DNA of 64,000 bases from NCBI RefSeq assembly GCF_014302995.1, contig NZ_CP060295.1:6935501-6999500 (forward strand). The letters are read 5' to 3'. This DNA comes from Variovorax sp. PAMC26660 (GTDB lineage: Bacteria > Pseudomonadota > Gammaproteobacteria > Burkholderiales > Burkholderiaceae_C). Each line of letters starts with the position of its first letter. Position 1 is the stretch's first letter. Under the pieces are notes generated by a model. That model had not been told where the DNA came from and made no database searches. It saw nothing but the letters and a program-made list of their open reading frames with translations. Shown here piece by piece: positions 24,490 through 41,894 of this stretch. The position numbers were made by a program, and so were the translations under genes.

Positions 24490-24574
<85 letters not shown>

Positions 24575-24794: not shown

Positions 24795-24879
<85 letters not shown>

Positions 24880-24963: not shown

Positions 24964-26373
24964 TCAAACGGGCAGCGCGATCAGATCATGACCCTCGGCG
25001 CCAACGATGCGCGCGCGAGTGAACTCACCGACCTTCAGCGTCTTGCTGATCTTCTCGGGCGGCAGCAGGCGAACCGTGCCGTCGATCTCCGGCGCATCGG
25101 CGTATGTGCGCCCCACTCCACCCTTGCGACCCATGCCGGGCGCTGAATCGACCAGCACCTGCATCGTCGAGCCGACTCGCTTTCGCAGCTTGGCAATCGA
25201 TACAGCTTCGGCGACTTCCATGAAGCGGGCTCGGCGCGCTTCGCGCTCGGCTTCGGGCAGCATGCCCGGAATGTCGTTGGCGGTCGCGCCTTCGACGGGA
25301 CTGTAGGCAAAGCAACCCGCACGATCGATCTGCGCTTCGCGGATGAAATCAAGCAGATGCTCGAACTCCTGCTCCGTCTCGCCAGGGAAGCCGGCAATGA
25401 AGGTGCTGCGAATCACAAGCTCTGGGCACACCTCGCGCCAACGCGCCAGACGCTCCAGGTTTTTCTCGCCGCTGGCCGGACGCTTCATGCGCTTGAGCAC
25501 ATCGGGATGGCTGTGCTGCAGCGGCACGTCGAGGTACGGAAGCACCTGGCCGCTCGCCATCAACGGAATGATTTCGTCGACGCTCGGGTACGGGTACACA
25601 TAGTGCAAACGAACCCAAGCGCCGTAGGGCTCGGCGATTTCACCAAGCGTACGCACCAACTCGAGCATGCGGGTCTTGACCGGCTTGCCATCCCAGAACC
25701 CGGTGCGGTACTTCACATCGACACCATAGGCCGAGGTGTCCTGGCTGATCACCAACAGCTCTTTCACGCCGCCTTCGAACAGGGCCTTGGCTTCGCCGAG
25801 CACATCGCCGACCGGCCGCGACACGAGGTCACCACGCATCGAGGGAATGATGCAGAAGGTGCAGCGGTGGTTGCAGCCTTCGCTGATCTTCAAATACGCA
25901 TAGTGGCGCGGCGTCAGCTTGAGGCCGGCGATGCCAAAAGCGTTCGGCACCAGATCGATGAACGGGTCGTGCGGCTTGGGCAGGTTCGCGTGCACTGCAT
26001 CCATGACCTCCTGCGTCGCATGCGGGCCGGTGACGGCCAGCACACTCGGGTGCATCTGGCGCACCAGATTGCCACCCTGGTCACCGGTCTTGGCACCCAG
26101 GCAACCAGTGACGATCACACGGCCGTTCTCGGCCAGCGCTTCGCCGATGGTGTCCAGACTTTCCTTCACCGCATCATCGATGAAGCCACAGGTGTTGACG
26201 ATCACCAGATCGGCACCCTCGAAGGTCTTGGAGGTCTCGTAACCCTCGGCGCTCAGCCGGGTCAGGATCAGTTCGGAATCGGTCAGGGCCTTGGGGCACC
26301 CTAGCGATACCATTCCTATACTCGGACGACGGGTCTTCGGGCGCTCTTCTACGGTACTCATGGGGGAACTCAT
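24964..26373 (-). CDS. rimO: Ribosomal protein S12 methylthiotransferase, phage/host chimera
   Basis: Radical-SAM enzyme that adds a methylthio group to an aspartate of ribosomal protein S12. The UPF0004 domain has three cluster cysteines (SLGC, VNTCGF, TGCLGAK). The radical-SAM motif is CNHRCTFC and a C-terminal TRAM domain follows. The first codons, up to the glycine before the first cysteine, come from the prophage left end, not from the host gene. The native start is stranded at 41130-41219. The new start [19 protein letters not shown] (ATG 26361, or ATG 26373 with four more residues) replaces the native MSEVASPERTIK segment. The rest is intact. The native promoter, probably that of phaR, no longer reaches it, so transcription must start inside or beyond the integrase gene. 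Confidence 0.96.
26282..26313. other. attL, left prophage junction inside rimO
   Basis: Crossover assigned to the CA dinucleotide at 26297-26298, the middle of the TGC cysteine codon on the minus strand. Bases to the left are host rimO (GCCTTGGGG arm); bases to the right are phage (CCCTAGCGATAC arm). The phage arm mirrors the arm at attR, supporting the placement. Confidence 0.82.
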
Positions 26374-27993
26374 TTGTCAGGTCTTGTTTATAGCTACAGC
26401 CGATTTTCCGACCCGCGTCAGGCAAAGGGGTCCAGTCTAGAGCGTCAAGCGGCTTATGCGGCGCGCTGGGCTGCAGAACATGGATTAAAACTTGACGAGT
26501 CGTTGACCTTGCGGGACGAAGGTCTCTCGGCGTATCACCAGAACCACGTCAAGTCGGGGGCTCTGGGGGTGTTTCTGGCAGCGATCGAAAGTGGGAAAGT
26601 CCCACCCGGATCCGTCCTGGTCGTCGAGGGCCTGGACCGCCTTTCGCGGGCTGAGCCGATTCAGGCACAGGGCCAGCTGGCACAGATTGTAAATGCAGGC
26701 ATCACTGTCGTGACGGCGAGCGATGGAAAGGCCTACAGCCGCGAACGCCTGAAGGCCAACCCGATGGACCTGGTCTATTCGCTGCTCGTGATGATCCGCG
26801 CTCACGAAGAATCCGACACGAAGAGCAAGCGCGTGAAGGCGAGCATCGTACGGCTGTGCCAGAACTGGATCGCCGGCACCTACGAGGGCCTGATCCGCAA
26901 TGGCAAGGACCCGGTTTGGCTTCGCCTGGTCGACGACAAGTGGACGCTGATTCCCGAGCGCGTTGAAGCGGCCCGCGTTGCCCTCGACCTCTATCGGCGC
27001 GGATACAGCGCCACACGCATCCTCGACGTGATGGTCGAACGCAAGCTCTCCCTCACTGAGGGCGGGCCCCAGACGCTGCAGATCTACCGACTGATCAAGC
27101 AGCGCGCGCTGCTGGGCGAGAAAGAGATCGTGGTCGACGGGGAGAACTACCGTCTGCCAGGCTACTACCCCGCCCTGTTGACCGTTTCCGAGTGGGATGA
27201 CCTGCAGACATTGACGTCCAGCCGCGGCCGTCGTGCCGCCAAGCACGGGGACGTGCCCGGCATCATCACCGGTATGCGGATAGCGCGCTGCGGCTACTGC
27301 GGCCGCGCCCTTGTGGGCCAGAACATCGGCACACGGAATCGGCGGGCAGATGGCGGCATTCAAGATGGCCACCGACGGCTTCATTGCACGAGCTACAGCA
27401 ACGGCGGTTGCCCAGTGCCAGGCTCAAGCTCGGTGGCCCCCATCGAGCGCGCGCTGATGGCCTACTGCTCGGACATGCTCAACCTGCAAGCGCTCTATGT
27501 CGGCGATCGCGCCGCGAGTCCGCGTGCCAGGCTGGCCAGCGCGCGCGCGAAGCATGCTGACCTCACGGCCAAGCTCGAGCGTCTGACCGACGCGATGCTC
27601 GAGGCGGCCGAAGACGGGGGAACCCCGGCCACCTTTGCCAAGCGCGCACGCGCGCTCGAGGTCGAGCAGAACGATGCGGCCGCGGAAGTCGCTGCCGCCG
27701 AGCGAGAGCTAGCTTCAGTAGCGCGGACGGATCTGCAAGGCGCCGACGAGATCTGGACCAAATTAGCCGCCGGCGTCGAATCACAGGATCTAGACGCACG
27801 CCTCCAAGCCCGCCAGCTCGTGGCCGACACCTTCGAGGAGATCGTGGTCTTCCAGCGCGGCATCGACCCCTCGACGACGCCCCGCGGCATTGTCGATCTG
27901 ATGCTGCGCGCCAAGGGTGGCGGCACGGCGCGCGTGCTTCGCATCGACCGCAAGGGCGGCTGGGTGGCAGCCGAAAGCGTCGCAGACGACTAA
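26374..27993 (+). CDS. Large serine recombinase (phage integrase)
   Basis: Catalyses integration and excision at attB and attP. The 539-aa protein has an N-terminal resolvase domain with YSRFS (catalytic Ser12 expected) and EGLDRLSR. The recombinase domain covers about residues 170-300. A zinc ribbon follows with RCGYCGRA and a later Cys pair ([10 protein letters not shown]), then a long coiled-coil (about 375-460). TTG start at 26374 with GGGGGA seven bases upstream. The start abuts the possible rimO ATG at 26373, so the promoter must lie in the phage-derived rimO segment. TATACT at 26317-26322 is a candidate -10, and its -35 region would span the crossover site. Confidence 0.95.
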
Positions 27994-28199
27994 ACGCCCT
28001 GCTTGGCGTCGTCAGAAGGCAGGACCGGCTCCTGCCAAGTCAGCGCCGCCGAGATCGGGTGCATCGCACGCAGGCGCGCATCGCGGGCCAAGTCGGCTGC
28101 CAGCTCCTCGAGCTGGTCCGGGTCGACCGTGCGCCAGTGGCATTTGAGCTGCTTGGCACATGAGGCAACCCATTGTTCCAGGGGCATCAAGTCTTCCAT
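27990..28199 (-). CDS. Small protein with LexA-box promoter, unknown function
   Basis: 69 aa (MEDLMPLEQWVASCAKQLK at the start), acidic and helical in appearance; family not recognised. Its 3' end meets the integrase 3' end with a 4-bp overlap. Upstream on the minus strand, CTGACA, 16 bp, then TATCAT (28207-28212) make a plausible promoter, and the LexA box fills the spacer. The predicted transcript begins at or next to the ATG, so it may be leaderless. An excision or SOS-linked role is possible but not shown. Confidence 0.6.
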   Translation of the reverse strand: MEDLMPLEQWVASCAKQLKCHWRTVDPDQLEELAADLARDARLRAMHPISAALTWQEPVLPSDDAKQGV

Positions 28200-28212
28200 T
28201 TTGGCGATGATA

Positions 28213-28228
28213 CTGTATATTTAAACAG
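28213..28228. promoter_or_regulatory. LexA (SOS) operator
   Basis: CTGT, eight A/T bases, ACAG: an exact match to the proteobacterial LexA consensus CTGT-N8-ACAG. It lies between divergent starts (28199 leftward, 28228 rightward) and inside the leftward promoter. The rightward operon includes an SOS-associated SRAP gene, which supports the call. Confidence 0.85.
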
Positions 28229-28755
28229 TGTCAGCGCTAATCGTCCACGAGGTATTCCGAACCCGCTTCGAAGGTGGGAAGCTCCAATCGGTGGAGGTGG
28301 TCAAGCACACCCGTAGGGTTGGCGAGCTCACGTACATGGAGCGCATCTACGACCCACGGCCAGGGCGCAGCATCTTCCTCGCGACGCTGCTGCAGCCGGA
28401 TGGCGAAACGTATGTGATCCCGCCCCTTGATCGGGCACGCCTGCGAAGGATCAAGGGCGGCATCCTGATCTCCGGCGTGGAGGTGATCGCGCGCGGCATG
28501 GGCTCGAAAAACATCAAGTCCGACAACTACCCACAGACCTGGTTCTGCCGGCCAGTGGTCATCCCTCGTGGCGGGTTTGACGATGACGAGGACCACCAAA
28601 CCAGTCCGGCCGAATCGCGCCGCCAGGCACGCGAACGCGAGCAGGAAGAGTCGCACGGGGCGCGACAGATCGGCGAGACATTGACGAGAAGGTCGACGCG
28701 CCGGATGCCCTATGACCCTGCGACCGCCTCAGGCAACTCACCGGGATATTTTTGA
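28228..28755 (+). CDS. Uncharacterised protein upstream of SRAP, probably SOS-controlled
   Basis: 175 aa with GTG start overlapping the last base of the LexA box. The N-terminal part looks like a compact mixed fold (FEGGKLQSVEVVKHTRRVGE, then YVIPPLDRARLRRIKGG and FCRPVVIPRGG). The C-terminal 60 residues are charged and probably disordered. No Shine-Dalgarno is visible, so it may be leaderless or start later. It is followed by the SRAP gene after 6 bp. Function not recognised; a partner of SRAP in damage tolerance is an inference from context. Confidence 0.62.
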   Translation: MSALIVHEVFRTRFEGGKLQSVEVVKHTRRVGELTYMERIYDPRPGRSIFLATLLQPDGETYVIPPLDRARLRRIKGGILISGVEVIARGMGSKNIKSDNYPQTWFCRPVVIPRGGFDDDEDHQTSPAESRRQAREREQEESHGARQIGETLTRRSTRRMPYDPATASGNSPGYF

Positions 28756-28761
28756 CCCACC

Positions 28762-29502
28762 ATGTGCAGCAACTACGAAACCGTCTCCCGCGCGGACCGT
28801 CTGCTGTCATTTTTCGGGGTCATTCGAGAAGACGATGAACGGCCTGTGCTCACCTGGCCGACCGGCATGGCTCCTTTTGTCCGGCTGGCCGAGGACGGCT
28901 CGGGAAACCGCCGCGTCGACGATGGCGCCTTCGGCCTGCTGCCCGGCTGGGCGAAAGAGCTCGTGTACGGGAAGAAGACGCACAACGCCAAGGCGGAGAC
29001 CATCGCCACGTTACCCAGCTACCGCACCGCGTGGCGCATGGGCCAGCGCTGCGTGGTCCCGGCCGAAGCGATCTTCGAGCCCTACTACGAGACCGCCGAA
29101 GGCCAATCCGTGCGCTACCGCATCCAGCAGCCCGGCGAGGTGCCCATGGGCCTCGCCGGCATTTGGGACAAGTGGCACAACCCGGAAACCGGCGAAGACC
29201 TGTTCAGTTTCGCGATGATCACGATCAATGCGGACGGCCATCCCGTGATGTCCCGCTTTCACAAGCCAGGGGACGAGAAGCGCATGGTGGTGATCCTCGA
29301 TCCCGAAGACTACGACGACTGGCTAACCTGCCCTGTGCACCTGGCACCTAAGTTCCTTCAGCAGTGGATGGGCCAGCTCGACACCTACCCAGCTCCGCTG
29401 GCTCCACGGGCGAAAAAGGAGAGGCCCGTCGGCGAGCGGGAGCCCAAGCGCGCAGCCAAAGGCACGCCGAAGCCACCGCCACCCCAGCTCGACCTCTTTT
29501 AA
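28762..29502 (+). CDS. SOS-response-associated peptidase (SRAP, YedK/HMCES family)
   Basis: Forms a covalent crosslink with abasic sites in single-stranded DNA through Cys2. After Met the protein begins CSNYETV. Other family sites are the Asn in HNAKAETI, the Glu in VVPAEAIFEPYY and the His in MSRFHKPGD. The protein is 246 aa. The Pro/Lys-rich tail ends in PPPPQLDLF, and QLDLF fits the QL(S/D)LF motif that binds the bacterial sliding clamp. The upstream LexA box fits SOS control. The spacing to the preceding gene suggests co-transcription. Confidence 0.93.
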   Translation: MCSNYETVSRADRLLSFFGVIREDDERPVLTWPTGMAPFVRLAEDGSGNRRVDDGAFGLLPGWAKELVYGKKTHNAKAETIATLPSYRTAWRMGQRCVVPAEAIFEPYYETAEGQSVRYRIQQPGEVPMGLAGIWDKWHNPETGEDLFSFAMITINADGHPVMSRFHKPGDEKRMVVILDPEDYDDWLTCPVHLAPKFLQQWMGQLDTYPAPLAPRAKKERPVGEREPKRAAKGTPKPPPPQLDLF

Positions 29503-29529
29503 GCCCACGCGGGCCGCTACGATCCAAGC

Positions 29530-29778
29530 ATGGCAACCCTGTACCTCTCGATGACCGAAAAGCTTTCTGCGCACTGGAAAGCCAACAACAACGCATACCC
29601 ACAGAAGTTCGTGCTGACGCCAGCGCAGCGGCACGAGTACGACGAGTCCTGCCGGATGTGTGGGGCAGACCCGAAGACCATTGGCGATCCCCAGCACATG
29701 GGCGTGCTGATCGAGATCGCCGAGAACACCCCGGGCGTGATGGTGGCCGCCGACGGCACCGAGGTCACGCCGCAGTGA
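29530..29778 (+). CDS. Small phage protein, unknown function
   Basis: 82 aa (MATLYLSMTEKLSAHW at the start) with one CxxC pair (SCRMCGAD), perhaps a half zinc site. Family not recognised. It overlaps the next gene by GTGA, which argues that both are translated. Confidence 0.6.
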   Translation: MATLYLSMTEKLSAHWKANNNAYPQKFVLTPAQRHEYDESCRMCGADPKTIGDPQHMGVLIEIAENTPGVMVAADGTEVTPQ

Positions 29779-30320
29779 ACGGGTTCCGCTCGCTCCTGCT
29801 GGCCGGCCTGCTCGCCCTGCCCCTGCTCGCCGCGGCCGAGCCGCGCGACTGCCTGGTGGTCGGCGTCAGCGACGGCGACACCATTACCGCGCGCTGTGGC
29901 GAGCCTGGTGCGTATGAGCAAGTCAAGGTACGCATCAACGGCATCGACGCGCCCGAGAAAAAGCAGCCGTTCGGCGAACGTGCCAAGCAGGCTATGTCCG
30001 ATCTGGTCTACATGAAGGACATCGAACTCGACTGCTTTAAGACCGACCGCTACCGGCGCAGCGTGTGCAAGGTGATGGTGGCCCCAGCTTCAAATCCAGA
30101 TGGACCGCAGACTCTGGACGCCGGCCTCGCGATGATCACCGTTGGCATGGCGTGGTGGTACCGCGCCTACTCGCGCGAACAGACGCGGCAGGAGCGCGGG
30201 CAGTACGAGTTCGCGGAGACCGAGGCGAAGGCCAAGCGCGTGGGCCTGTGGCACGACGCCGATCCAGTAGCGCCCTGGGACTGGCGCAAGACTCAACGTC
30301 AGGGCCCCACGTCTTACTGA
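29775..30320 (+). CDS. Secreted thermonuclease-like (SNase) endonuclease
   Basis: Staphylococcal-nuclease-fold enzyme, 181 aa, with an N-terminal signal peptide (LLLAGLLALPLLAAA, residues 6-20). Active-site residues are present: the metal Asp in GVSDGDTI, Arg and Glu in VRINGIDAPEK, and the second Arg in DRYRRSVC. GTG start at 29775, coupled to the preceding gene. The 3' end overlaps the convergent Rz1 gene by 7 bp. Export suggests it acts in the periplasm or outside the cell. Confidence 0.87.
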   Translation: MNGFRSLLLAGLLALPLLAAAEPRDCLVVGVSDGDTITARCGEPGAYEQVKVRINGIDAPEKKQPFGERAKQAMSDLVYMKDIELDCFKTDRYRRSVCKVMVAPASNPDGPQTLDAGLAMITVGMAWWYRAYSREQTRQERGQYEFAETEAKAKRVGLWHDADPVAPWDWRKTQRQGPTSY

Positions 30321-30598
30321 GCCATCGGTGCAGGCGTCTGCACAGCCTCGGTGGCTCTGATCTGTCGGTTCTGGCAGATCCGGTATTCCTTCACTGTCGC
30401 CAACGCCCACCGAAGCAGCGTCTTCCCCGTGCTATCGGGCACCGGCTCCAGGTCCGGGCAGGGTTGTCGCAGGCTCGCCTGCAGGGGCACGTCCTGCGAT
30501 CGCGTCGTTGAGGACGCGCAGGCCGTCATCATCAAAGCAAGCATCGCGATACACAGGACGTTCCACGATCCGATCGACTTGCTGCGTGCGGTAGACAT
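30314..30598 (-). CDS. Rz1-like outer-membrane lipoprotein spanin
   Basis: o-spanin subunit that helps fuse inner and outer membranes at the end of phage lysis. 94 aa with an N-terminal signal and lipobox (MMTACAS, Cys near residue 27). The first half is embedded in another frame of the Rz gene, the classic Rz/Rz1 arrangement. It is longer than lambda Rz1 and carries extra Cys residues. ATG at 30598. Confidence 0.75.
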   Translation of the reverse strand: MSTARSKSIGSWNVLCIAMLALMMTACASSTTRSQDVPLQASLRQPCPDLEPVPDSTGKTLLRWALATVKEYRICQNRQIRATEAVQTPAPMAQ

Positions 30599-30797
30599 AG
30601 CGAACTTGCTCCTCGGCCTTGAAAGCCTCATGGTTTGCGGCGGCAACATCGCCGCGCTCGATCTTCTTGAACTGGTCCCGGGCTTCGACGCGCGCGCGCT
30701 CGAGCTCGGCGGCGTCGAAGCGCCAGGCTTGCGTCTTCCATCCGCCCGCGAAACCGATGAGCAGCGCGGCAATGGCTGTTGCGACATACGCGTACAT
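30432..30797 (-). CDS. Rz-like inner-membrane spanin
   Basis: i-spanin, 121 aa. One N-terminal membrane anchor (YVATAIAALLIGFAGGW) and then a charged, helical periplasmic part (residues 30-80). The ATG at 30797 overlaps the endolysin stop by one base and has GGGAGG upstream. Rz1 lies nested in its 3' half. Confidence 0.8.
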   Translation of the reverse strand: MYAYVATAIAALLIGFAGGWKTQAWRFDAAELERARVEARDQFKKIERGDVAAANHEAFKAEEQVRYVYRTQQVDRIVERPVYRDACFDDDGLRVLNDAIAGRAPAGEPATTLPGPGAGAR

Positions 30798-31456
30798 CAA
30801 CGTCCTCCCAGTGCACGGCGAACCGTAGAGGTCAGCGCCTTGACTTCGGCCAGGCCGAGGTCGCCACCGTTCACCCGCTTTCGAATGGCGGTCGTCTCGC
30901 CCAGCATGCTGTCGGGGATCTTGTCCTCCCACCAGGCGATGCAGATCTCCAGCGAGTACCGCGGTTGGGCCGCCAGATCCGGAATCCCCACCAGGTTCTG
31001 GCCCACGAGGTCACCGACCCTTTCGTAGTTGCCACGCCCAGTCAGGCCGATCGGCGTACGCCCCCGAAAGGTCCAACCGTCATCCGGCAAGACATTGCCG
31101 AGATTCTTTCGGCCCCAGTCACCGCCGTAGACGATGTTCGCGATCGCGCGCTGGTCGGCCGCCTGCTTGCCTGGGATGCGCCCAACTCGCTGCGCCTGCG
31201 CCGGCGTGATGCGGTGCGCGCCGAACGTGGGCACAAGCGCGGCCGCGCTGTAGTTCAGGTTCTCCTCGAGCTGCTGCAACAGCGTCGACTCGTGCAGGAT
31301 GTTCGGCAGGAAGTCGGCCAGGTCAGCGTCGCCCTGGCTGAAGGTGCTCTCGTTGACTTCTTCGCTGAAGACCTGCCCCCACAGGCTGGCCGTCGCGGCC
31401 GCCACGCCGCACGAGGTGAGGATGCGAGCCCATTCGGATGCGGTGCGCCTGGTCAT
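30797..31456 (-). CDS. Endolysin, GH19 chitinase-like lysozyme
   Basis: Peptidoglycan hydrolase for host lysis, 219 aa. The family GH19-type catalytic Glu is expected in NILHESTLLQQLEENLNYSA. Further conserved stretches are GRGPIGLTGRGNYE-like (seen as GRTPIGLTGRGNYERVG) and SLEICIAWWE. No clear signal peptide, so it needs a holin. It overlaps the upstream membrane-protein gene by 4 bp and the Rz start by 1 bp. Confidence 0.88.
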   Translation of the reverse strand: MTRRTASEWARILTSCGVAAATASLWGQVFSEEVNESTFSQGDADLADFLPNILHESTLLQQLEENLNYSAAALVPTFGAHRITPAQAQRVGRIPGKQAADQRAIANIVYGGDWGRKNLGNVLPDDGWTFRGRTPIGLTGRGNYERVGDLVGQNLVGIPDLAAQPRYSLEICIAWWEDKIPDSMLGETTAIRKRVNGGDLGLAEVKALTSTVRRALGGR

Positions 31457-31758
31457 AATGGCCCTAGCGGCGCGCGATCGGATCGAGTCTCAGGGGGCGG
31501 CCCGTGGCGCCATTGGCGCCGCGTCACCTCGAGGTAGAGCAGCACACCGCCAACGCCGGCGAACTCGTACCAATCGACCCGCCGAGCCATGAGCAGATCG
31601 AGCAACACGCCAGCGGAGTACGTGGCATGGAGCGCGTAGATCAACCACCAGACGAACCGGTTGCGCTTGCGCTGCATGAGCCCGATCCGGCAAATGCAGC
31701 CGGCGAGAACGAGTGCGCAGGCAAGGATGCCGGCATATCGAAGGATCGACTCCATCAC
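31453..31758 (-). CDS. Small membrane protein in the lysis cassette
   Basis: 101 aa with about three hydrophobic stretches (ILACALVLAGC, WWLIYALHATYSAGVLLDLL and a weaker third) and a charged Pro-rich tail. It is similar in size to phage holins or antiholins. It sits between the putative holin and the endolysin with 4-bp overlaps at both ends. The exact role is not known. Confidence 0.65.
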   Translation of the reverse strand: MMESILRYAGILACALVLAGCICRIGLMQRKRNRFVWWLIYALHATYSAGVLLDLLMARRVDWYEFAGVGGVLLYLEVTRRQWRHGPPPETRSDRAPLGPL

Positions 31759-32099
31759 TGGCCTCCCAGCTTTTCAATGCGCTTGATGCCCGCGTTCAGA
31801 AGCGCTGTCACGACGATCTGAGCGCCATAGCCTGCGACGAGGCTGGCCAGGATCAGCAAAGGGCGCGATTCGCTGCTGATCGCAGCCAGCGCGCCCGTAC
31901 CGCACGCGGCACCGATCAGCGTCGACAGCAGGATGAAGATCACTGTTCGAACCTTGCCCATGGGATTGGCCTGGTAGAGCGCGAGCAGCGCCCCCACAAG
32001 CGCCCAGAGCAGCGAGTAATAGTCGACGCCGAGCAATGCAAGCGTGGCCATGGAGATGGCGCCAACGATCACGCCAGCGGTGGTGGTGGGCTCAGGCAT
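31755..32099 (-). CDS. Putative holin
   Basis: 114 aa with three or four predicted membrane helices (GVIVGAISMATLALLG, LLWALVGALLALY, VIFILLSTLIGAACG, LLILASLVAGYGAQIVV) and a short charged C-terminus. Size, topology and place at the head of the lysis cassette suggest a holin that permits endolysin release. No family signature was recognised. Confidence 0.65.
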   Translation of the reverse strand: MPEPTTTAGVIVGAISMATLALLGVDYYSLLWALVGALLALYQANPMGKVRTVIFILLSTLIGAACGTGALAAISSESRPLLILASLVAGYGAQIVVTALLNAGIKRIEKLGGQ

Positions 32100-32133
32100 G
32101 AAGTCCTTTCAGGCAATGAAAATCGTCATCCGC

Positions 32134-32658
32134 TCACGCCGGCATCACCAGCTCGGGCAGCATTGCGATCAGCTCTGCGCTTGTGGGCTCCTGGATGGCT
32201 CCCGCATTCCACTCGTCCAGCACGTCGTAGCACTTGGCCCACACCAGCGAGCGCCACGCGCGCAGTGCACGCCCTTCGTTCTGGAACCTGGGCACTGCCG
32301 GCTCTTCGGCATAGGTCACGGCGTTGCGCATGTCGTCGTAGCCCATCGCTACGGCGGCGGCGTCGAGGTGGCGTTGCACGTCGATGCGCAAGTTCGCGAT
32401 CCGCTGGGCTTCGGTGAGCGGCGGGACAGGCGGATCGACCGGAACGACCGGGATCTGCTCGAGCAGCCATGCGCCGGCTGCCTCGATCGCGCGCATGCCT
32501 TCGGGCACGGCCGGCGGCTCGCTCTCCAGACAGTTGCCGGGAATGAGAAACACGCCCTCTTCCACTGGCGACAGGTCCGAGGCGTCGAGGATCACCGGCC
32601 CCACATAGATGCGCGTCGCAGGGTCGAACGCGAAGACGGTTTTGGTTTTCTGGTCCAT
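32134..32658 (-). CDS. Phage tail-fibre-associated protein, unknown role
   Basis: 174 aa (MDQKTKTVFAFDPATRIYVG at the start). The N-terminal half resembles short tail-fibre assembly or DUF4376-like proteins that follow a fibre gene; the C-terminal half is helical. It lies 8 bp after the collar-domain gene. The assignment rests mainly on context. Confidence 0.55.
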   Translation of the reverse strand: MDQKTKTVFAFDPATRIYVGPVILDASDLSPVEEGVFLIPGNCLESEPPAVPEGMRAIEAAGAWLLEQIPVVPVDPPVPPLTEAQRIANLRIDVQRHLDAAAVAMGYDDMRNAVTYAEEPAVPRFQNEGRALRAWRSLVWAKCYDVLDEWNAGAIQEPTSAELIAMLPELVMPA

Positions 32659-32666
32659 GGTGTTCC

Positions 32667-33302
32667 TCAGTACTTGATGATCGGCAGGTAGGCGACGTTG
32701 CGCGGTCGGGTTTCAGCGCCGCCAACGACCTCCGAGGTGTGGGGCGTGCGCCCCGGGCCGGGGTAGTACGAGAAAGTGCCGGCTGTGCCGAACACGTTGT
32801 CGCCGCTAATGCCGTGGTTGTGAGCCCGGAAGGCATCGCCTTGAGCCGAGCCAAAAACCCGCCCCACATCCACGCCACGCGCATCGTCCCAGCCGCGATC
32901 GAACTCGCCGCGACCGTCAGGCAGAACGATGTACTGACCCGCAATGCTGCGGTTCGTCGATGGCGCCGACGTGCTGGTGGTGCGGTAGCCAAACAGCGCC
33001 GTCGGGTTGTTGGTGTCACCGCAGTAGATGGCGGCCGCCAGCCCGGGATAGGCAGCGACTGAAACTGCCGCGCCGTTTCGCTTCAGCCATCCAGCGGGCG
33101 GCGTCGACGCGGCGGTATAGGAAACGATGCCGGGCTCCAGCTGCGCGCCCAGTGCCGCACGGGCTTCGGCGGGAGTTCCGCCGTTGACGCCGAGCAGCCC
33201 AGTCAGCCAGTCCCACAACTTGCCCATGCCTGCACGGGCCTGGCCGCTGGATGGGGCGGGGTAAGGGGCAGAGAGCTCGGCTCTTGCGGGTGGTGCGGGC
33301 AT
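32667..33302 (-). CDS. Tail collar-domain fibre protein
   Basis: 211 aa. A Pro/Ala-rich start is followed by a phage tail collar-like domain (GIVSYTAASTPPAGWLKRNG near residue 57, VLPDGRGEFDRGWDDARG, then GDAFRAHNHGIS). The C-terminus RPRNVAYLPIIKY is typical of such fibre tips. Probably receptor-binding or decorative. It begins 1 bp after the large tail protein. Confidence 0.8.
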   Translation of the reverse strand: MPAPPARAELSAPYPAPSSGQARAGMGKLWDWLTGLLGVNGGTPAEARAALGAQLEPGIVSYTAASTPPAGWLKRNGAAVSVAAYPGLAAAIYCGDTNNPTALFGYRTTSTSAPSTNRSIAGQYIVLPDGRGEFDRGWDDARGVDVGRVFGSAQGDAFRAHNHGISGDNVFGTAGTFSYYPGPGRTPHTSEVVGGAETRPRNVAYLPIIKY

Positions 33303-33303
33303 A

Positions 33304-36300
33304 TCAATATCCTTTCAAAGTGATGTCGGCGGTGGCGCCGGAAACTGCGACGTGCGCCGCGTTGAACAACCTGACGACAGGGGCCAGCGGCACGGACTTG
33401 TTGACTTCGGCGGTCGTCGCGCCGCTGCCGTTGGCCTGCAACGTGACCTGCACGGTCTTGATGGAAGTGAACGGCTTGGTGAAGGGAGGAATAGTCCCTG
33501 CTGCAGCGATCGGGAGATCTGCGATCTCTTCCTCGATGTCGGGCGCGTCGACGATCACGGTCAGCTGCTCAAGCACCCCCTGCACGGCACCTGCACCAAG
33601 GCGGATGCGAAACTGGTAGACGTCGTTTGACACCACCAACTGGCCGGGCCAAGGCTGCCATTCGCCGGGCGGCAGATAGAACGGTGCTTCGTCGTCATCA
33701 CCGTAGAACGACGAGGCGTCAGGCCCATAGAACGAACCCTGCCCCGAAAGCCGATAGTCGATCTTCAGATCGATGCCCTGCGTCTCGACAACGACCGTCA
33801 TCACCGAACCCGCAAGCGCTGCGTTCAGCGAGACCTCCGGGCTTACATAGATGAGCTGGGCATAGGAACTGGCCTTGTAGAACGGGTCGTTGTCCTGGCC
33901 GTAGAAGCTCTGGTCATCGGTCCCGTAGAACGAATCGAGGTCATCCGCTGTGGGCTTCTCTCCGACAAGCGTCCAGCCCGATTGCTCGCCTGGCGCGAAC
34001 GGCCAGCCCAGGGCGGCGAAGTCCCATTGCTCAACGATGTTCGCAATGGGAGGGTCGCCCAGATTCATCACGATGTTGGCGGTGGCCAGCGACTCGTTGC
34101 CACTCGTGTCCCGAGCCTTGCCCATGATCGTGACAACGCCACCAGGGCGCCTCACGAGGTCGTAGGGGGAAGTGGTGACCACGCCCTCGTCGTGCAGACG
34201 TGTGGCGCTGCCCCAATCGAGATTGCTGCCATAGTGGAAGCGGAAAACAAAGCCGGCCAGGTCAGGCGGACGTCGCGGCATCGTCCAGGTGAGCACGCTC
34301 CCGGAGATGTTCAGGTTCTCCATGTTGGGCGGCGGCTCGGTCTTGCCGATGACCTGGTGAAGCACTTGCGCGCTCCAGACGCTGACCGCAAGAGAATTCC
34401 GCGTCCGTGCGAGGATGAGCACCATCGCCAAGTCTTCAACGCCTGTGAACTTCGCTTCGGTCGCATTGCCCGGCACGACGACGCTGCGCCACGGTCCATC
34501 CGGCAGCACGAAGTACTGCACCTCAACGTTGCCATTCGAGACAATCGAGGCGTCCTGAATCGGCAACCAGGTCACGCGCACACCGTTGACGATGGTCCCG
34601 TCGTTCTGAACGATCAGTTCGTCCTCCCCGCTGAAGACCGAAACGATCGATGGCGGATGGATGTCCCACGGGCGCGGCAGCCCGCTGTTCGGCGCATAGC
34701 CTTGCGGCAGGAACGCCAGCCCAGGCACAAAGATGTGCGCAGTCGTCTCCTTGAGCGTCAGCATCAGGCCCTCGGGTGAGAACGTGCGAGACAGGATCCG
34801 GAATTCCTTGTCCGTCCAACCGTAGCGAGGGACAGTGAGGGTGATGCCGTCAAACAGCTCGAGGGGATAGGCCCGCAGCTTGAACGGCAGCGTGACCGTC
34901 AGCGGATCTCGCCCATCCCGCAACATGATCCCGGCGATGTGGAACGCCTGCCCTGCATAGAAGACGGCCGGCATCGTCACTTCCTGCGCCAGCTCAGCAC
35001 CGTCGGCGGCCACCAGCGCATCGGCCCGATAGGGCGTGATCGGGGTTTCGACGTAGTTCGCGGCCTGGTCCCAGATCCGCGCCGAAACGATGTTGATCTT
35101 CTCGTTGCGTGGCTTGTGGGGGCTGAGCGTGATCGAGCTCTGCGAGACCGACTCATTGTTGCGCTGCACGACTGCCAGGTCTGCATCGGTCAGGTTCATG
35201 ACCGGCGCCTGGTAGACGCCTGCACGTACAAAGAACTCGCCGGCCGCAAAGGCCCACTCTCCGCCCATCGCCTGCGCCAAGTCGTCCAGCACATCACGCG
35301 CCGGAGCTCCGAACTGGGCCACCAGCGCGGCGCGGAACATCGGAACGTATTCCGCGCCCGTGTAGTTCCACAGCAGGTCACAAGCATTGGCCGCGGCGCT
35401 GATCCGGGCCTCTTCCGCATCCGTCAAGCTGGTGCGCTTGCCGAACTGGGGATGCGTCAGCACATTGCGCATCATCAGCGCGGGGTTTTCGGACCAGCCG
35501 AAAGTGTTGGTTCGCGGGTCGTACATGCGCGCGCCGCGAATCAGCGCAGTCACGTTCGGCAGGCCGTTCGGGAAGGCGGACTCTTCGTAGACGAACTCGC
35601 ACTGCAGATAGGCCACGCCGGCGGCGCGGTGCGCGGCGGTCCAGGTCCCTGGCAGGAAGGCCTGCAGCCGAGCGTCAGCGGGTTGGCCAGGTGAGCCCAG
35701 GTGTACGTAGACACGCGCGACTGACAGGAAATTCGACCACTGATAACTGATGTAGTAGGTCGCCCCCTGAACGGGGGGGTTCGTCAAGGTCACAACATTG
35801 CCGTTCAGCGAAAACGGGACCGGGCTTCGCTGGTGTTGAGCGTCCTCGCCATTACCTTGGGAGATCCACTCGACGACCTGAACAGATGCGGCAATCGGCG
35901 TGCGATCCAGAAGCGTGACCGCCGAGATCGAGGTCTGCATCACGCTCTCGATAGTTGTCTTCCCCCACGGCGCCGTCGTCACATTGCCGGCGCCGTCCAG
36001 GTCGATCGGCGTGTCGTTGAAGAAGATCCGCTCCACACCATCGATCTCATGCGCGGCGAGCGCGATGGTGGTCACGAACGTGGAGTTGTAAGGGGCAACT
36101 GCCGACTGGAAGAAGACGTTGCCGCCCTTGCGCGTGCGGCCCATCACCAGCTCGCGCGGCCCGACCGTGGTCTGCGTGTTGACCAGGCGGTCGACCACCG
36201 AAGCATCGTAGGCCGCCCGCTGCGAACGCTCAGCCTTGCGCTTTTGCATACTGGAAAACCCAAGGCCACCAACCAGCGTGATGGCCCACGAGATGGCCGT

Positions 36301-36366
36301 CACGGCCATGGTGGTGGCGCCGAGTCCTGTGGCCCACGCAACAACTGGAGCAATGAGCGTGGGCAT
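33304..36366 (-). CDS. Tail-tip (host-specificity, J-like) protein
   Basis: 1020-aa central tail-tip protein of a siphovirus-type tail. The start has hydrophobic helices (VAWATGLGATTMAVTAISWA), followed by the conserved tail-hub core (RELVMGRTRKGGNVFF, then YDPRTNTFGWSENPALMMRN). Fibronectin-like segments lie past residue 600. Near the C-terminus are repeated SFYG motifs separated by acidic residues (genome positions 33683-33741 and 33895-33945). The ATG shares one base with the stop of a broken upstream gene. It looks intact, but its partner tail genes are missing. Confidence 0.88.
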   Translation of the reverse strand: MPTLIAPVVAWATGLGATTMAVTAISWAITLVGGLGFSSMQKRKAERSQRAAYDASVVDRLVNTQTTVGPRELVMGRTRKGGNVFFQSAVAPYNSTFVTTIALAAHEIDGVERIFFNDTPIDLDGAGNVTTAPWGKTTIESVMQTSISAVTLLDRTPIAASVQVVEWISQGNGEDAQHQRSPVPFSLNGNVVTLTNPPVQGATYYISYQWSNFLSVARVYVHLGSPGQPADARLQAFLPGTWTAAHRAAGVAYLQCEFVYEESAFPNGLPNVTALIRGARMYDPRTNTFGWSENPALMMRNVLTHPQFGKRTSLTDAEEARISAAANACDLLWNYTGAEYVPMFRAALVAQFGAPARDVLDDLAQAMGGEWAFAAGEFFVRAGVYQAPVMNLTDADLAVVQRNNESVSQSSITLSPHKPRNEKINIVSARIWDQAANYVETPITPYRADALVAADGAELAQEVTMPAVFYAGQAFHIAGIMLRDGRDPLTVTLPFKLRAYPLELFDGITLTVPRYGWTDKEFRILSRTFSPEGLMLTLKETTAHIFVPGLAFLPQGYAPNSGLPRPWDIHPPSIVSVFSGEDELIVQNDGTIVNGVRVTWLPIQDASIVSNGNVEVQYFVLPDGPWRSVVVPGNATEAKFTGVEDLAMVLILARTRNSLAVSVWSAQVLHQVIGKTEPPPNMENLNISGSVLTWTMPRRPPDLAGFVFRFHYGSNLDWGSATRLHDEGVVTTSPYDLVRRPGGVVTIMGKARDTSGNESLATANIVMNLGDPPIANIVEQWDFAALGWPFAPGEQSGWTLVGEKPTADDLDSFYGTDDQSFYGQDNDPFYKASSYAQLIYVSPEVSLNAALAGSVMTVVVETQGIDLKIDYRLSGQGSFYGPDASSFYGDDDEAPFYLPPGEWQPWPGQLVVSNDVYQFRIRLGAGAVQGVLEQLTVIVDAPDIEEEIADLPIAAAGTIPPFTKPFTSIKTVQVTLQANGSGATTAEVNKSVPLAPVVRLFNAAHVAVSGATADITLKGY

Positions 36367-36557
36367 CAGATTTTCCAGGCGACGATGGCCGCCGACATTT
36401 GGAGCGCAAGCCTGCCGTTCTCCCCCGGGCCAATGGCGATCGCCCCGTTGCAGACACCCAGCAGCTCACGACCTTCGTTGAGCAACAACACCACGTCGCC
36501 GACTGCGGCCATACGTGGCGAGACAGGCTCACCCAGCAAAGAGGTCGCCAGTTGCCC
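36366..36557 (-). pseudogene. 3' fragment of a DUF6950-like tail-tip gene
   Basis: About 63 codons, GQLATSLLGEPVSPRMAAVG to the end NGRLALQMSAAIVAWKI. They read in a frame different from the tape-measure fragment upstream. The content resembles the C-terminus of the small protein that precedes the J-like gene in many phages (family name from memory). The 5' part is lost at a deletion join near 36550. Its stop overlaps the next ATG by one base, as in an intact phage. Confidence 0.68.
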
Positions 36558-36901
36558 GTCATGATGAACGAGGTCAGGGAGTCCTCTGCGCTCTTGAACG
36601 CATTGGTGAACGCTTCCTCGGTGCCCTTTGCCACGTTCTTGACGTCATCGAGGTAGTTCTGCAGCGCGGTACTTGCGCCGTTTGTCCAGTCGGTGCGCTT
36701 CGCATCGAGCTGGTTGTAGTAGTCGTCGTTGAGCTTGAGCGCCTCACTCAACGACTGCTGAATCCTCGCGACTTCGCCCTGGTACTTGTCTGATTCCAGT
36801 GTGTTGTTCTTTGCCGCGCTGACGGCCAGTCCGGCCTGCAGGTTCTGGAATTCCTTGCGTATCGCCTTTGTGCTTTGAAGCCGTTCGGCCGCTTGGCTGC
36901 C
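36551..36901 (-). pseudogene. Internal fragment of a tail tape-measure gene
   Basis: About 117 codons from SQAAERLQSTKAIRKEF to AEDSLTSFIMTGN. They have the Gln/Lys-rich helical character and the DSLTSFIMTG motif that precedes the C-terminal part of lambda-like tape-measure proteins. Both ends are cut: a join near 36901 to a kinase gene on the other strand, and a join near 36550 into the DUF6950-like frame. A full tape-measure gene would be several times longer. Confidence 0.72.
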
Positions 36902-37416
36902 ACCCAATGAGCGCATTGGCCATGCGCAAGGCACCGATCGGGTTCCTGGCTGCAGTCGCCATGGCCCCAGGTACGGCACCGCGCGACAGTGAGGGCCGTA
37001 TCTCTGCGGAGTGGCTGGACCAGCCGCGTTCGCCACGCCAGATCCTGCAGTGGTGGGGCACCGAATACCGCCGCCGGGAACATGAGCATTACTGGTCGCG
37101 CCAACTCTTGCAACGCGCGACTGACCTCATGCGCGATGGAGTGAGCCGTATCGTCATTACGGACTGCCGCTTCCAAAATGAAGCCGACACGGTACGCCGC
37201 CTGGACGGGAAGATCTGGCAGATCAAGCGCCCGGGGATCAACGACGCAACGACCTCCGAAGGGTCTCACGTCAGCGCGACCGATGGCAGCGAGTTTTCGC
37301 CGGACCTCATCCTCACCAACAGCCACGACATCAGACACCTGCAGCAGCTGGTGCTGGGCGAGTTTCTCTCGCTCGAGAGCGGCATCGTTGGCACAACCGT
37401 GACGGTGCCAGCATGA
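36901..37416 (+). pseudogene. 3' part of a deoxynucleoside monophosphate kinase gene
   Basis: The frame encodes HPMSALAMRKAPIGFL, then PRSPRQILQWWGTEYRR, HYWSRQLLQRATDLM and VITDCRFQNEADTVRR. These match the middle and end of phage dNMP kinases. The N-terminal P-loop part is missing, removed at the same join that cuts the tape-measure fragment. The stop overlaps the next gene as ATGA, the order expected from the intact ancestor. A catalytic product is unlikely. Confidence 0.75.
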
Positions 37417-37889
37417 GGATCTGGATCGACACCGAGTTCAACGGGCATGAGGGAGAACTGATCTCGCTGGCTCTCGTCGACGAGGATGGGGCCAGTTTCT
37501 ATCGCTACGTGCACTGTGCAGAGCCCGAGCCTTGGGTTGCCGCAAATGTGTTGCCTGTTCTGGGCCTCTACAGTCTCGCCCCCGAGCGCAAAGCGCCCGC
37601 TTCACGCCAGCCCAGCAATGTCTGGACGCTTGCGTACCTTCAGCGTGCGCTTGCCCAGTGGCTTGAGGTCTACGAGAGCATCCACCTCGTCGCGGACTGG
37701 CCTGAAGACATCGCCCACTTCTGTCGACTGCTGATTACCGGGCCCGGCACACGCCTCGACACCCCTCCGCTGACCATGGAGATCCGTCGCGATCTCGATG
37801 CTGAATCACTGGTGCCACACAACGCGCTGGAGGACGCGCGCGCGATGCGTGCCGTACACCTTGCATACGAGAAGGCGGGGTGCCTGTGA
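37413..37889 (+). CDS. DEDD-family 3'-5' exonuclease
   Basis: 158 aa with RNase H-like exonuclease motifs: IDTEFNG (ExoI Asp and Glu), an Asp in VADWPED, and HNALEDARAM (ExoIII, DEDDh type). Likely degrades or trims DNA or RNA during phage replication. Translation is coupled at both ends (ATGA with the kinase fragment, GTGA with the next gene). Confidence 0.8.
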   Translation: MRIWIDTEFNGHEGELISLALVDEDGASFYRYVHCAEPEPWVAANVLPVLGLYSLAPERKAPASRQPSNVWTLAYLQRALAQWLEVYESIHLVADWPEDIAHFCRLLITGPGTRLDTPPLTMEIRRDLDAESLVPHNALEDARAMRAVHLAYEKAGCL

Positions 37890-38926
37890 CGTCGCCACTT
37901 CAAACAGCGCACGACCACGCCGTGGGCGCCGAACCGGCAGATGAACTCATTGTGTGCACCGTCGCAGCACCACGCCAGATGGCGATGGCCGGCGTATACA
38001 CCGGCGCCGAGTTGCTCACGCGTTCGAGCCGACCTGGTGCTTATGACGCCATGGCTATTCCCAGCCTGTTCAATGGGCGCAAGCGACTGCCGGGCGATCA
38101 CGAGGCGGCAACGGTATACGTGCCACGCGAGATCGCCCCGCAGCCGCTCAAGGTCAGCCCACGCAACAGCATCGATGAGCCGCGCACGCTGACGCGCGAG
38201 TTCCCAACGGTCTACCAACCGCGCGGCGAGTACCGACCGCATGCAGGCAGCACGCCGGCGAAGGTGCTGGCTCATCTGCGAGCCTTGGGCGGGTTCATCT
38301 CCCATGCCGAGATCTGCGAGCGCTTCGACATCAAGCGCAGCGCGATCACCGCCGCCTTCAAGCCAATCCTGAAGCATGGCGTGCTGGTGCGCCAGGTCGT
38401 TGACGGCTACACGGGCTTTTCACTTCCCGGCTGGTCCGCTCCGCTTCCGCGCGTTCCGTCAGAACCATTTCAAACCGCATGGCGTGCAGAGGTCGACGAG
38501 CTCCACGCCGTTCAAGCTGCTGGAAAAGAAATGCCAACGACGGGCGAGAAACTGAACATCGTCTTTGCGACCGGCGCCCGCGACTTTCTGTCTCCGGGCA
38601 ATGAAAACCGCCGCTTCTGGCCCATCCAACCAGCCACGGTCACCGCGCTGACCAAAGACGAGTCCTCGGAAGTCTCAGCGTTCCTTCGCGCGCTTCCGGA
38701 AGAGCTGCACTACCGCCCAGTTGGTCAAGGGCAGCAGGGCGACGCCAGTAAGTTCACCCCCGACCAACTGAGCGCGCTCTACGCACTCAGCCTGCGCGAG
38801 GCCGAGCTCGGTTTGCTGCTCGGCTATCTCGCCGTCCTGCAGCTGCGCCAGCATTTCGCGGATGGCGATCGCATCTACCCGTTCCCCCCACTCACCGAGC
38901 CGCCTCGGCTCACCGATGCGGCCTGA
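37886..38926 (+). CDS. Phage protein with central winged-helix-like segment, unknown function
   Basis: 346 aa from the GTG at 37886, coupled to the exonuclease. A region near the middle (STPAKVLAHLRALGGFISHA through KHGVLVRQVVDGYTGFSL) looks like a winged helix. A later stretch, ARDFLSPGNENRRFWPI, recalls the NRRFWP motif of VapE-type phage helicases/primases but without the ATPase core, so it may be a leftover of a fusion. Function not assigned. Confidence 0.6.
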   Translation: MTSPLQTAHDHAVGAEPADELIVCTVAAPRQMAMAGVYTGAELLTRSSRPGAYDAMAIPSLFNGRKRLPGDHEAATVYVPREIAPQPLKVSPRNSIDEPRTLTREFPTVYQPRGEYRPHAGSTPAKVLAHLRALGGFISHAEICERFDIKRSAITAAFKPILKHGVLVRQVVDGYTGFSLPGWSAPLPRVPSEPFQTAWRAEVDELHAVQAAGKEMPTTGEKLNIVFATGARDFLSPGNENRRFWPIQPATVTALTKDESSEVSAFLRALPEELHYRPVGQGQQGDASKFTPDQLSALYALSLREAELGLLLGYLAVLQLRQHFADGDRIYPFPPLTEPPRLTDAA

Positions 38927-38941
38927 GCCGCTGGAGATCTC

Positions 38942-39964
38942 ATGTCCCTTAAAGAATTCGATGCGGCCGATGGCCACGCGCAAACAGAGACCACAGCCGC
39001 AGTCGACCAGTTCGCAGTCGTTGACCTCAACCTGATTGCGACGAGCCGCACCAACCCGCGCAAGACCTTCAACGAGGCCAAGATGCAGGACTTGGCCGAG
39101 AGCATCCGCGCCAGCGGCGTGCACCAGCCCATCCTGCTGCGTCCGCTGCCAAGCAATCGCCTCGAGGACACGTTCCGCAACCGCGGCGATGGCAACCCGC
39201 TGCCCACCTATGAACTCGTGTCCGGCGAACGTCGGTACCGGGCCAGCAAGATCGCGGGACAGCCCACCATCCCCGCGATGATCCGCCAGCTCAGCGATGC
39301 GGCCGTGTTGGAGATCCAGATCGTCGAAAACCTGCAGCGTGACGACTTGTCCGAGCTCGAGGAGGCCGAGGGCTACCAGCTGCTGTGCGACGAGACCGGC
39401 ATCGCCAAGGACAAGGTTGGCGAGCGCATTGGCAAGAGCCGCAGCTACGTCTATGGCCGCATGAAGCTGCTCGAGCTCACAAGTGCTCCGCGTGAGGCGC
39501 TGCGGACCGGCGACATCGACGGCAGCAAGGCCCTACTCATCGCTCGCATCCCCGACGAGAAGCTGCAAATCAAGGCGCTAGAGGCCGCGACCGAGAAGGA
39601 CCACCAGGGCTCGCCGCGGTTGAGCTACGCGAGACTGCGGAGGGCCTTGAAAAGCTCTGTGCCAAATGCGACGAATGGTGGCCGGCCGACCGCGAGTTCT
39701 TCTTCAGCGAACCGGAAGGCGTACACAAGCTTTTCTACTGCTGCAAGGCCTGCTACCGCGAGCACCTCGACCCGAGGCGACTCGATAAACCGAACGGCCT
39801 CAGTCAGGACCGCTCCCGTGTTCTCCCTTCACTCTTTGGAGCGTCCACATGATCGGAACGCAAGCTACTGGCGCCATCCAAGGCGTCGTAATCAGCGCGG
39901 TTTCGCACGAAGGACTGACGGTCACGGTCGACGGTCGCCCTGCCCGCCTTGCAGTCGTAACTGA
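38942..39964 (+). CDS. ParB-like nuclease-domain protein, 3' end replaced by deletion
   Basis: The first ~230 codons encode a ParB/RepB-family protein: LIATSRTNPRKTFNEAK (start of the ParB domain), VSGERRYRASKIAG, IVENLQRDDLSELEEAEGY, then a helix-turn-helix with GKSRSYVYGRMKLL. After about 39620 the frame becomes Ser/Thr/Arg-rich and lacks similarity, because it runs out of frame through a zinc-ribbon gene. The native C-terminus is therefore lost. DNA binding may survive. Start ATG with GGAG nearby. Confidence 0.78.
   Translation: MSLKEFDAADGHAQTETTAAVDQFAVVDLNLIATSRTNPRKTFNEAKMQDLAESIRASGVHQPILLRPLPSNRLEDTFRNRGDGNPLPTYELVSGERRYRASKIAGQPTIPAMIRQLSDAAVLEIQIVENLQRDDLSELEEAEGYQLLCDETGIAKDKVGERIGKSRSYVYGRMKLLELTSAPREALRTGDIDGSKALLIARIPDEKLQIKALEAATEKDHQGSPRLSYARLRRALKSSVPNATNGGRPTASSSSANRKAYTSFSTAARPATASTSTRGDSINRTASVRTAPVFSLHSLERPHDRNASYWRHPRRRNQRGFARRTDGHGRRSPCPPCSRN
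39622..39852 (+). pseudogene. 3' fragment of a zinc-ribbon phage gene
   Basis: In the frame offset from ParB the DNA encodes EKLCAKCDEWWPADREFFFS, then HKLFYCCKACYREHLDPRR, ending FGAST. The paired Cys motifs (CAKC and CKAC) and EWWPADREFF are typical of small phage zinc proteins. There is no start; the 5' end was lost at the join with parB near 39620. The stop overlaps the next ATG (ATGA). Confidence 0.7.
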
Positions 39965-40106
39965 GGATGGCGAGGTCATCGCCGCCGGCGTCGATGTCGC
40001 CCGCGAGGCGCGTGCCGTGGCCGTCAACAGCTACCGAGGCTTTCTCAAGGGAAAGGGATTTCTGCGCGTGCTAAGCAAGCCCATCGCGAAGAACGAGGTG
40101 CGCTGA
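39849..40106 (+). CDS. Small phage protein, unknown function
   Basis: 85 aa, MIGTQATGAIQGVVISAVS at the start. Predicted small beta-rich domain (VVISAVSHEGLTVTVDG, RLAVVTEDGEVIAAG) and a basic C-terminus. ATG coupled to the zinc-ribbon stop. Not recognised. Confidence 0.6.
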   Translation: MIGTQATGAIQGVVISAVSHEGLTVTVDGRPARLAVVTEDGEVIAAGVDVAREARAVAVNSYRGFLKGKGFLRVLSKPIAKNEVR

Positions 40107-40135
40107 GGGATACCGCAGCGAGCGGGCTCCCTCAG
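40103..40135. terminator. Hairpin between convergent phage genes
   Basis: CTGAGGG (40103-40109) pairs with CCCTCAG (40129-40135) around a 19-base loop, between the ends of two convergent genes. There is no U-run on either strand, so termination is uncertain. Confidence 0.3.
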
Positions 40136-40593
40136 CCCGAATCTGGAGTGTTCCGATTGAACACACCGCTGAGCACGCCCAGACCGGGTACAGGCGGCAG
40201 TGCCGGAAGGTTAGTTAAGAGGGCGTCAATCCGGGCCAAGATCGGCACCATGTTAGGGGCATGAAACATGGTTTGAGTGCGCGACCAATGCAGCATCACA
40301 AGTTTGTGAGTCCCATTGCTGCCATCGTTCAGCGGAAGATCCAACGACCTTGGCTCGCCCGCGGCCGTGTAAACGAAGATCCAGTCGTTCGGTTCGAGCA
40401 ACCCGTTGCCGAACCAGAACATTGCGTCGCGGATCGGGACTGCACCACCTCCACCATTCGCCAACCCTTGCATCAAAACATAGCTGGCCATGTCGACGTG
40501 TTCATTCACGCGGATCACGATCCGTTCAGCATTTGGTATGCCACGGTCAAACACGCCTGTCAGGCTCAGTTCGCCTAACGTTCCTTGCATCAT
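40132..40593 (-). CDS. Accessory protein B of the attR-side pair, unknown
   Basis: 153 aa, apparently soluble and beta-rich (ERIVIRVNEHVDMASYVLM, then WFGNGLLEPNDWIFVYTAAG and HKLVMLHWSRTQTMFHA), with a Pro-rich tail. No family recognised. It is translated after the coiled-coil membrane protein with a 4-bp overlap. The place at the prophage edge, oriented against the early genes, is typical for lysogenic-conversion genes. Confidence 0.6.
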   Translation of the reverse strand: MMQGTLGELSLTGVFDRGIPNAERIVIRVNEHVDMASYVLMQGLANGGGGAVPIRDAMFWFGNGLLEPNDWIFVYTAAGEPRSLDLPLNDGSNGTHKLVMLHWSRTQTMFHAPNMVPILARIDALLTNLPALPPVPGLGVLSGVFNRNTPDSG

Positions 40594-41120: not shown

Positions 41121-41129
41121 GGGTATATT

Positions 41130-41819: not shown

Positions 41820-41894
41820 GTCATCGGATGATTCTAGGGAGCGGTTTTGCTGCACCGCGACAAGGTTTACCCTGACCGCGCCCCGCACTTTTGC

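Follow-up and report, generated by a model that had tools for sequence, protein, structure and literature searches.

Results

A prophage remnant divides rimO

The window, a 64,000-nucleotide stretch of the Variovorax sp. PAMC26660 genome, carries on its minus strand a rimO open reading frame of 469 residues (24964..26373) in which a phage start is joined to the host body of the gene. A domain search of this hybrid returned the Radical_SAM, UPF0004 and TRAM_2 domains, and the sequence scored 515.9 bits against TIGR01125 (cut-off 356.95). The first 26 residues, from the ATG to a cysteine codon, make up a phage-borne cap (26296..26373, minus strand), with the ATG at 26371-26373 or an inner ATG at 26359-26361 as candidate starts and the cysteine codon at 26296-26298. 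The attL crossover is placed at the TG of this codon (26297..26298, minus strand), the putative centre of an inverted repeat. The attL phage arm (26306..26321), a predicted binding site of the integrase, has GATAC at 26306-26310 and TATAC at 26317-26321 on the plus strand, read as GTATA...GTATC on the coding strand. Beside rimO also lie two tRNA-Leu (CAG) genes close to each other (24490-24574 and 24795-24879).

Divergent from rimO is the gene of a 539-residue large serine integrase (26374..27993, plus strand), with a putative TTG start at 26374. The protein matched the phrog_95 integrase family of PHROGs and contains a Resolvase domain (PF00239, 49.4 bits, cut-off 23.3), a Recombinase domain practically at its cut-off (PF07508, 21.2 bits against 21.1) and a Zn_ribbon_recom match just below it (PF13408, 24.1 bits against 25.3). 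The prophage remnant spans 14,849 bp (26298..41146). Ten of its open reading frames were compared with PHROGs. Two had no match, one fell in a family of unknown function and the others matched integrase, spanin, endolysin, holin, tail, RNase H and ParB-like families; no head or packaging family appeared in this subset of its open reading frames. The prophage is short and may be defective. The open reading frame at 28762-29502 matched phrog_1599, a phage family of unknown function; its product may be an SRAP/HMCES-type protein.

At the far end, the attR phage arm (41123..41138) is the non-coding mirror of the attL arm, with GTATA at 41123-41127 and GTATC at 41134-41138 on the plus strand. The attR crossover is likewise placed at the TG of a second, stranded cysteine codon (41146..41147, minus strand). 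This codon belongs to the native rimO start (41145..41219, minus strand), which encodes MSEVASPERTIKSTAPKVGFVSLGC and then runs through ANDT to a stop in phage DNA. Upstream of this start is the host gene phaR (41259..41888, minus strand), whose tested residues (41259-41831) matched PHB_acc_N and PHB_acc. The initial annotation had proposed that a phage inserted at the first cluster cysteine stranded the native start and that its left end supplied another start in frame with the rest of the gene; the junction sequences agree with the former and the hybrid open reading frame with the latter. It is thus confirmed that a phage remnant splits rimO at the first cluster-cysteine codon and that its left end brings an in-frame start.

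Assignment of the native and phage-borne starts

Joining the host flanks by script gave an uninterrupted rimO. The genome (one contig, 7.39 Mb) holds a single RimO, a second match being 28% identical. Among 36 searched relatives of the same genus, loci were read from 29; six with a match were left out and the draft genome G022 gave a distant match only. All 29 loci read have the native arrangement, which makes 41219 the native start and 26373 the one brought by the phage. The initial annotation had named strains with an empty site and the attL start as evidence against its reading; the 29 loci carry the native start instead. The roles could in principle be reversed, the left start being native and the stranded one having arrived with the phage, but native-type MSEV... 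starts in 29 of 29 same-genus loci, the adjoining position of phaR and the carriage of the other cap by free phages leave that reading next to no probability. Across 12 pairs of a cap and its stranded native start, the latter meets a stop within 15 codons past the cysteine in every case, and in six the stop is the second codon past it (41131-41144 in the window, the right arms in the relatives).

Recurrence of phage-borne rimO starts

The initial annotation had suggested looking for other serine-integrase prophages at rimO and comparing their left ends. Relatives of the integrase were taken from viral contigs, genomes and phage records, giving 160 loci that include duplicates and distant relatives. 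A RimO-body search found the start of the RimO body in 48 of the 160, and in all 48, which take in integrase relatives or their remnants, the frame is open through the junction without a stop. These loci span the genus, family, order and class of the window, plus Pseudomonas chengduensis. Compared over 54 nucleotides, the 48 comprise 40 unique junctions. In 39/40 of these an ATG occurs in frame ahead of any stop, against 5/40 and 1/40 in the other two frames; with GTG and TTG allowed the counts become 40/40 against 35/40 and 8/40, so only the ATG count discriminates between frames. The predicted in-frame starts at rimO junctions are therefore not a product of chance. In one of the 48, L093, the start is of the native type (KVGFVSLGC) and lies next to a C-terminal piece of an integrase.

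In the free phages JC1 (MSKKYSIGIVSLGCPRDIGSIPL-stop) and Rb1 the cap is present but is not followed by RimO, and the same is true of ten viral contigs, two of which (L164 and L165) are identical. The related phages Bcep176 and LPPA36 showed no cap within about 300 nucleotides of the integrase. Seven of the integrase relatives (L184, L186, L196, L199, L212, L215 and L224) also lie at rimO, with other DNA between the integrase and a RimO body that begins 247-1340 nucleotides from the integrase start. A classification of these seven as non-rimO, made with a view of about 220-300 nucleotides upstream, was dropped once the RimO body was found farther out.

The window and JC1 integrases are 56.7% identical over 99% of the query. 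In a midpoint-rooted integrase tree, from which L080 and L047 were left out, both group with rimO-type rows, and the rimO-type label requires six changes. L047 (G000:C1:2720802-2722100) and L101 are serine recombinases of more remote kinship (33% and 31%). Directly beyond the start of each lies coding sequence that is similar in the two and presumably Walker-A-like, and they possibly share another target gene.

Probable coding and integrase constraints on the attP arm

With the two phage halves set side by side, attP shows as an inverted repeat, imperfect and centered on the TG of the cysteine codon, each half laid out, with variation, as 8 nucleotides, GATAC, a 6-nucleotide spacer and TATAC. 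The right half has a similar motif and does not encode RimO; the left half, AGTATA GGN ATG GTATC..., spells S-I-G-M-V-S. The initial annotation had listed five synonymous codon pairs that differ between the phage and native starts. All five differences are correct, the cysteine codon TGC being common to both. The accompanying argument that the match exceeds crossover homology agrees with an overlap that would comprise only the TG of that codon. The further conclusion, that the codon differences show selection for RimO, needs qualification. The odd phage codons (ATA and GTA) conform to the integrase-arm motif, which is also present in the non-coding right arm, and the five-codon argument is therefore insufficient by itself. 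What sustains the conclusion is the codon-position pattern across the family together with a decayed copy described below. In the 12 pairs, the cap and the stranded native start use different codons at 49 of 61 sites encoding the same residue, against 188 of 330 between native starts, an excess that the arm motif could have caused.

The mirror arm offers a control, as it serves the same enzyme and carries no code. Summed column entropies at codon positions 1/2/3 were 4.75/0.96/11.64 bits in the coding arm (34 unique sequences, no residue filter) and 9.56/7.94/9.72 bits in the mirror arm (25 unique). In a filtered set, in which caps had been chosen by their residues, column shuffling reached the observed value in 0 of 100,000 trials (44 arms); the entropies above were computed again for the coding arm without that choice. 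Exclusion of five caps beside broken integrases gave 0.0003 (39 arms), and the mirror arm gave 0.25. Counted pairwise, codon differences in the coding arm (33 unique sequences of the filtered set, the same five caps excluded) were 1468 synonymous and 862 non-synonymous, against 262 and 1836 in the mirror arm; since the arm sequences are related, neither these differences nor the entropies are independent counts. At the S/R, I and M codons alone, the values were 2.94/0.38/2.84 bits for the coding arm and 3.27/2.95/4.20 for the mirror arm, so that in the coding arm position 1 is as variable there as position 3 and the constraint resides in position 2. The coding spacer keeps GGN and also, with few exceptions, a hydrophobic codon, whereas five of the six columns in the mirror spacer vary widely; where the third codon base falls, conservation is higher in the mirror arm.

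It is conceivable that the arm resembles rimO as a by-product, with an integrase that needs similar DNA in attP and attB and no selection on the protein. The arm motifs common to both arms and the conserved positions next to the centre in both would fit such an origin. However, the mirror arm has no codon-position pattern, its spacer takes nearly any base at sites where that of the coding arm retains G plus a hydrophobic codon, the start codons are in frame, and in the decayed copy of G211 the residues stay while the motif is gone. We therefore judge a pure by-product improbable. The sequence patterns suggest that the coding arm is kept as an integrase docking site and as protein code at once.

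rimO starts beside decayed integrases

In genome G211 (L070/L112/L241), a decayed integrase (E 5e-21) lies antisense ahead of rimO. The arm now reads CGCATTGGGATGGTGTCC; GTATA and GTATC have both been lost and the residues RIGMVSLGC are kept. No native-type start was found by motif in the 3.5-kb locus around phaR or by pattern in the whole genome. In G299 (L075) the start SVGFISLGC, less surely of phage origin, stands beside a weaker integrase remnant (E 4e-11), and the rimO starts of L092 and L102 have integrase fragments nearby. To judge from their sequences and neighbors, the starts of G211, G299, L092 and L102 look phage-derived.

RimO starts of the IGMVSLGC type occur in 13 of 399 genomes of the family, and 9 of these 13 also hold a rimO-type integrase or a remnant of one. 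In G508 (L234), G188 (L237), G446 (L239) and G312 (L242), no integrase remnant was found up to 1.4 kb upstream, and their starts of this type may be native variants or older captures.

Expression of the hybrid gene

A consensus scan of 26300-26700 recognized no promoter for the hybrid rimO. Neither codon choice nor promoter match scores in the integrase 5' end separated the rimO-type rows (mean 7.4, 41 rows) from the others (mean 7.5, 14 rows, seven of them rimO-type themselves). A hybrid frame that is intact and hardly expressed would make lysogens in effect rimO-low, with the loss of RimO being cheap. Along with the lack of a recognized promoter, this would agree with the JC1 lysogen, which in the available part of its report shows no change in streptomycin response, a result cited there for rimO knockouts as well (PMC9144972). 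Long-term constraint in the family and the G211 copy are nevertheless hard to explain without expression, and we hold a barely expressed hybrid to be a minor prospect.

Alternatively, the new 5' end could place S12 modification under phage regulation, with that control as the selected function. Integration does sever rimO from phaR and sets it back to back with the integrase gene; against this, no conserved regulatory element was found between integrase and cap, and the leaders differ in length and sequence. Regulation by the phage, though compatible with an attachment site that does two jobs, seems an unlikely reason for the arrangement.

A related integrase clade at TPP-like elements

Within the integrase tree, eight rows fall in a nine-row clade with full support (100/100), the ninth, L230, being unclassed. 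On the midpoint root, the clade is nested in a larger supported group with 30 rimO-type rows; two of its rows, L043 and L193, are identical. Its loci include L132/L135 (G075), L136/L134 (G001), L137/L133 (G403), L203, L216 and L247. Each of the eight rows has a TPP-like stretch ahead of the integrase (24.3-46.8 bits), and in G075, G001 and G403 a second such stretch lies 24-47 kb away on the same strand. At the gathering threshold Rfam gave no match in 13 loci, the TPP-like matches having come with relaxed thresholds. The six hybrids of the three genomes scored 34.2-46.8 bits against RF00059, below its gathering cut-off of 54.3.

The second copy in G075 precedes a CytX-like gene, for which Transp_cyt_pur of Pfam was over its cut-off and the first 150 residues scored 67.8 bits against TIGR02358, whose cut-off of 309.85 is for the full length; in G403, the second copy precedes a TonB receptor gene. 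The genome of the window has an unsplit copy (L130) before a like gene; it scores 53.8 bits against RF00059, also just below 54.3, and places the crossover in GAGGTAA of the P4/P5 region. An alternative crossover at GGGGTGC was dropped, as comparison with this copy favored GAGGTAA.

In minimum-energy folds, the three hybrids on the host-gene side form both helical arms plus one or two additional hairpins, in which the phage arm lies. On the integrase side, both arms form only in G075, the other two of three lacking them, and the empty site of G403, when reconstructed, takes a fold other than the TPP shape. L203 seems to be a free phage. Its order is a stretch that by eye resembles the window open reading frame at 39849-40106, a terminator-like hairpin, a part that resembles the 5' side of the aptamer but contains insertions, and the integrase. 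The TPP match of L203 is weak (24.3 bits, E 0.61). In this clade, the phage would carry the 5' part of the aptamer, with additional hairpins that contain the integrase arm, and the modeled folds suggest that integration could rebuild a foldable riboswitch for the host gene, a CytX-like transporter or a TonB receptor.

Taken with rimO, these loci point to a serine-integrase family that habitually restores 5' ends, attP being the 5' module of the split element (the rimO start or the TPP aptamer) and at least one host keeping the rimO cap after decay. We consider such a habit reasonably probable and go no further, because two of three integrase-side folds and one empty-site fold lack the TPP shape, and the fossil in G299 is less convincing.

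Discussion

The anatomy, frame, recurrence, codon-position constraint and persistence after integrase decay described above are read from the sequence. We infer further that the arms are bound by the integrase, that the crossover lies exactly where placed above, that the phage start is used, that the hybrid RimO is active and that the lysogen gains from it. Together these suggest an attachment site with two jobs, in which integration gives rimO a different 5' end and does not destroy it, and we regard this explanation as very likely. The large serine integrase would recombine attP and the stretch of rimO codons on either side of the first cluster cysteine, crossing over at the TG of TGC. The left half of attP would provide a start codon, then a short leader that varies, then the first strand [S/R]-[I/V]-G-x-[V/I]-S-L-G-C, and would stand after integration in frame with the host rimO body, while the native start would end within a few codons in phage DNA. 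The hybrid mRNA would then begin in phage DNA and the hybrid protein would work, the gain being a lysogen that keeps S12 methylthiolation. A short cap should suffice, because in the solved structure 4jc0 the RimO chain starts practically at this first strand, matching from its residue 3.

The initial annotation held replacement of a gene's 5' end, start codon included, to be much less usual than 3' restoration; it is less rare than this suggests, as such replacement has been reported at rimO for JC1, at dusA and at prfC. Burkholderia phage JC1 integrated in the laboratory at the 5' end of rimO, where its ATG keeps the frame, and its authors predict, in the portion of the 2022 report available, that RimO stays functional (PMC9144972). 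The window element shares the serine integrase, the target end and the in-frame phage ATG with JC1, although the cap sequences differ; that account, as far as available, concerns one phage, whereas the double coding of the arm, the recurrence of the cap and the caps kept after decay come from the present analysis. A serine-type prophage of Variovorax boronicumulans J1, J1_pp_2, is listed at RimO with a 16-bp att sequence unlike the window junction, and the accessible text makes no mention that we found of a replaced rimO start (PMC9658991).

At dusA, islands and prophages replace the 5' end of the gene, including a substitute beta strand, and putative promoters have been noted in the associated elements; in the sections available, these differ from the present case in their target and in an integrase family described as novel, and contain no mirror-arm or codon test (PMC4482086). 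Elements of the SXT/R391 type, in the parts of the reports available, restore prfC (PMC2791158, PMC5122569, PMC12210918, PMC4344509); they use a tyrosine recombinase and nearly identical attP and attB, unlike the window element (PMC2791158). Mobile elements at rimO are also described in Acidithiobacillus ferrooxidans (PMC10322971) and Polaromonas naphthalenivorans CJ2 (PMC4482086); they have the target in common with the window and are given as an island or ICE, with no mention of the gene start in the available excerpts. The rimO case is therefore a further instance of what was reported for JC1, and 5' replacement was already known at dusA and prfC. As far as we searched the open-licence literature, the mirror-arm evidence for double coding, the captured start and the riboswitch clade were not found there. 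No report of a TPP riboswitch as a prophage attB or phage integration site was found in it either, and its papers on riboswitches and serine integrase integration sites are, by title, reviews or engineering tools.

In this family, one short stretch of DNA is apparently under constraint in two roles, recombinase site and coding sequence, and the mirror arm serves as a built-in control. The arrangement gives phages a route to land in a conserved gene without breaking it and means that a host gene can acquire a phage-derived start, and the TPP clade suggests that an RNA element is dealt with in the same way. The sites also constitute natural attP/attB pairs for this family of serine integrases.
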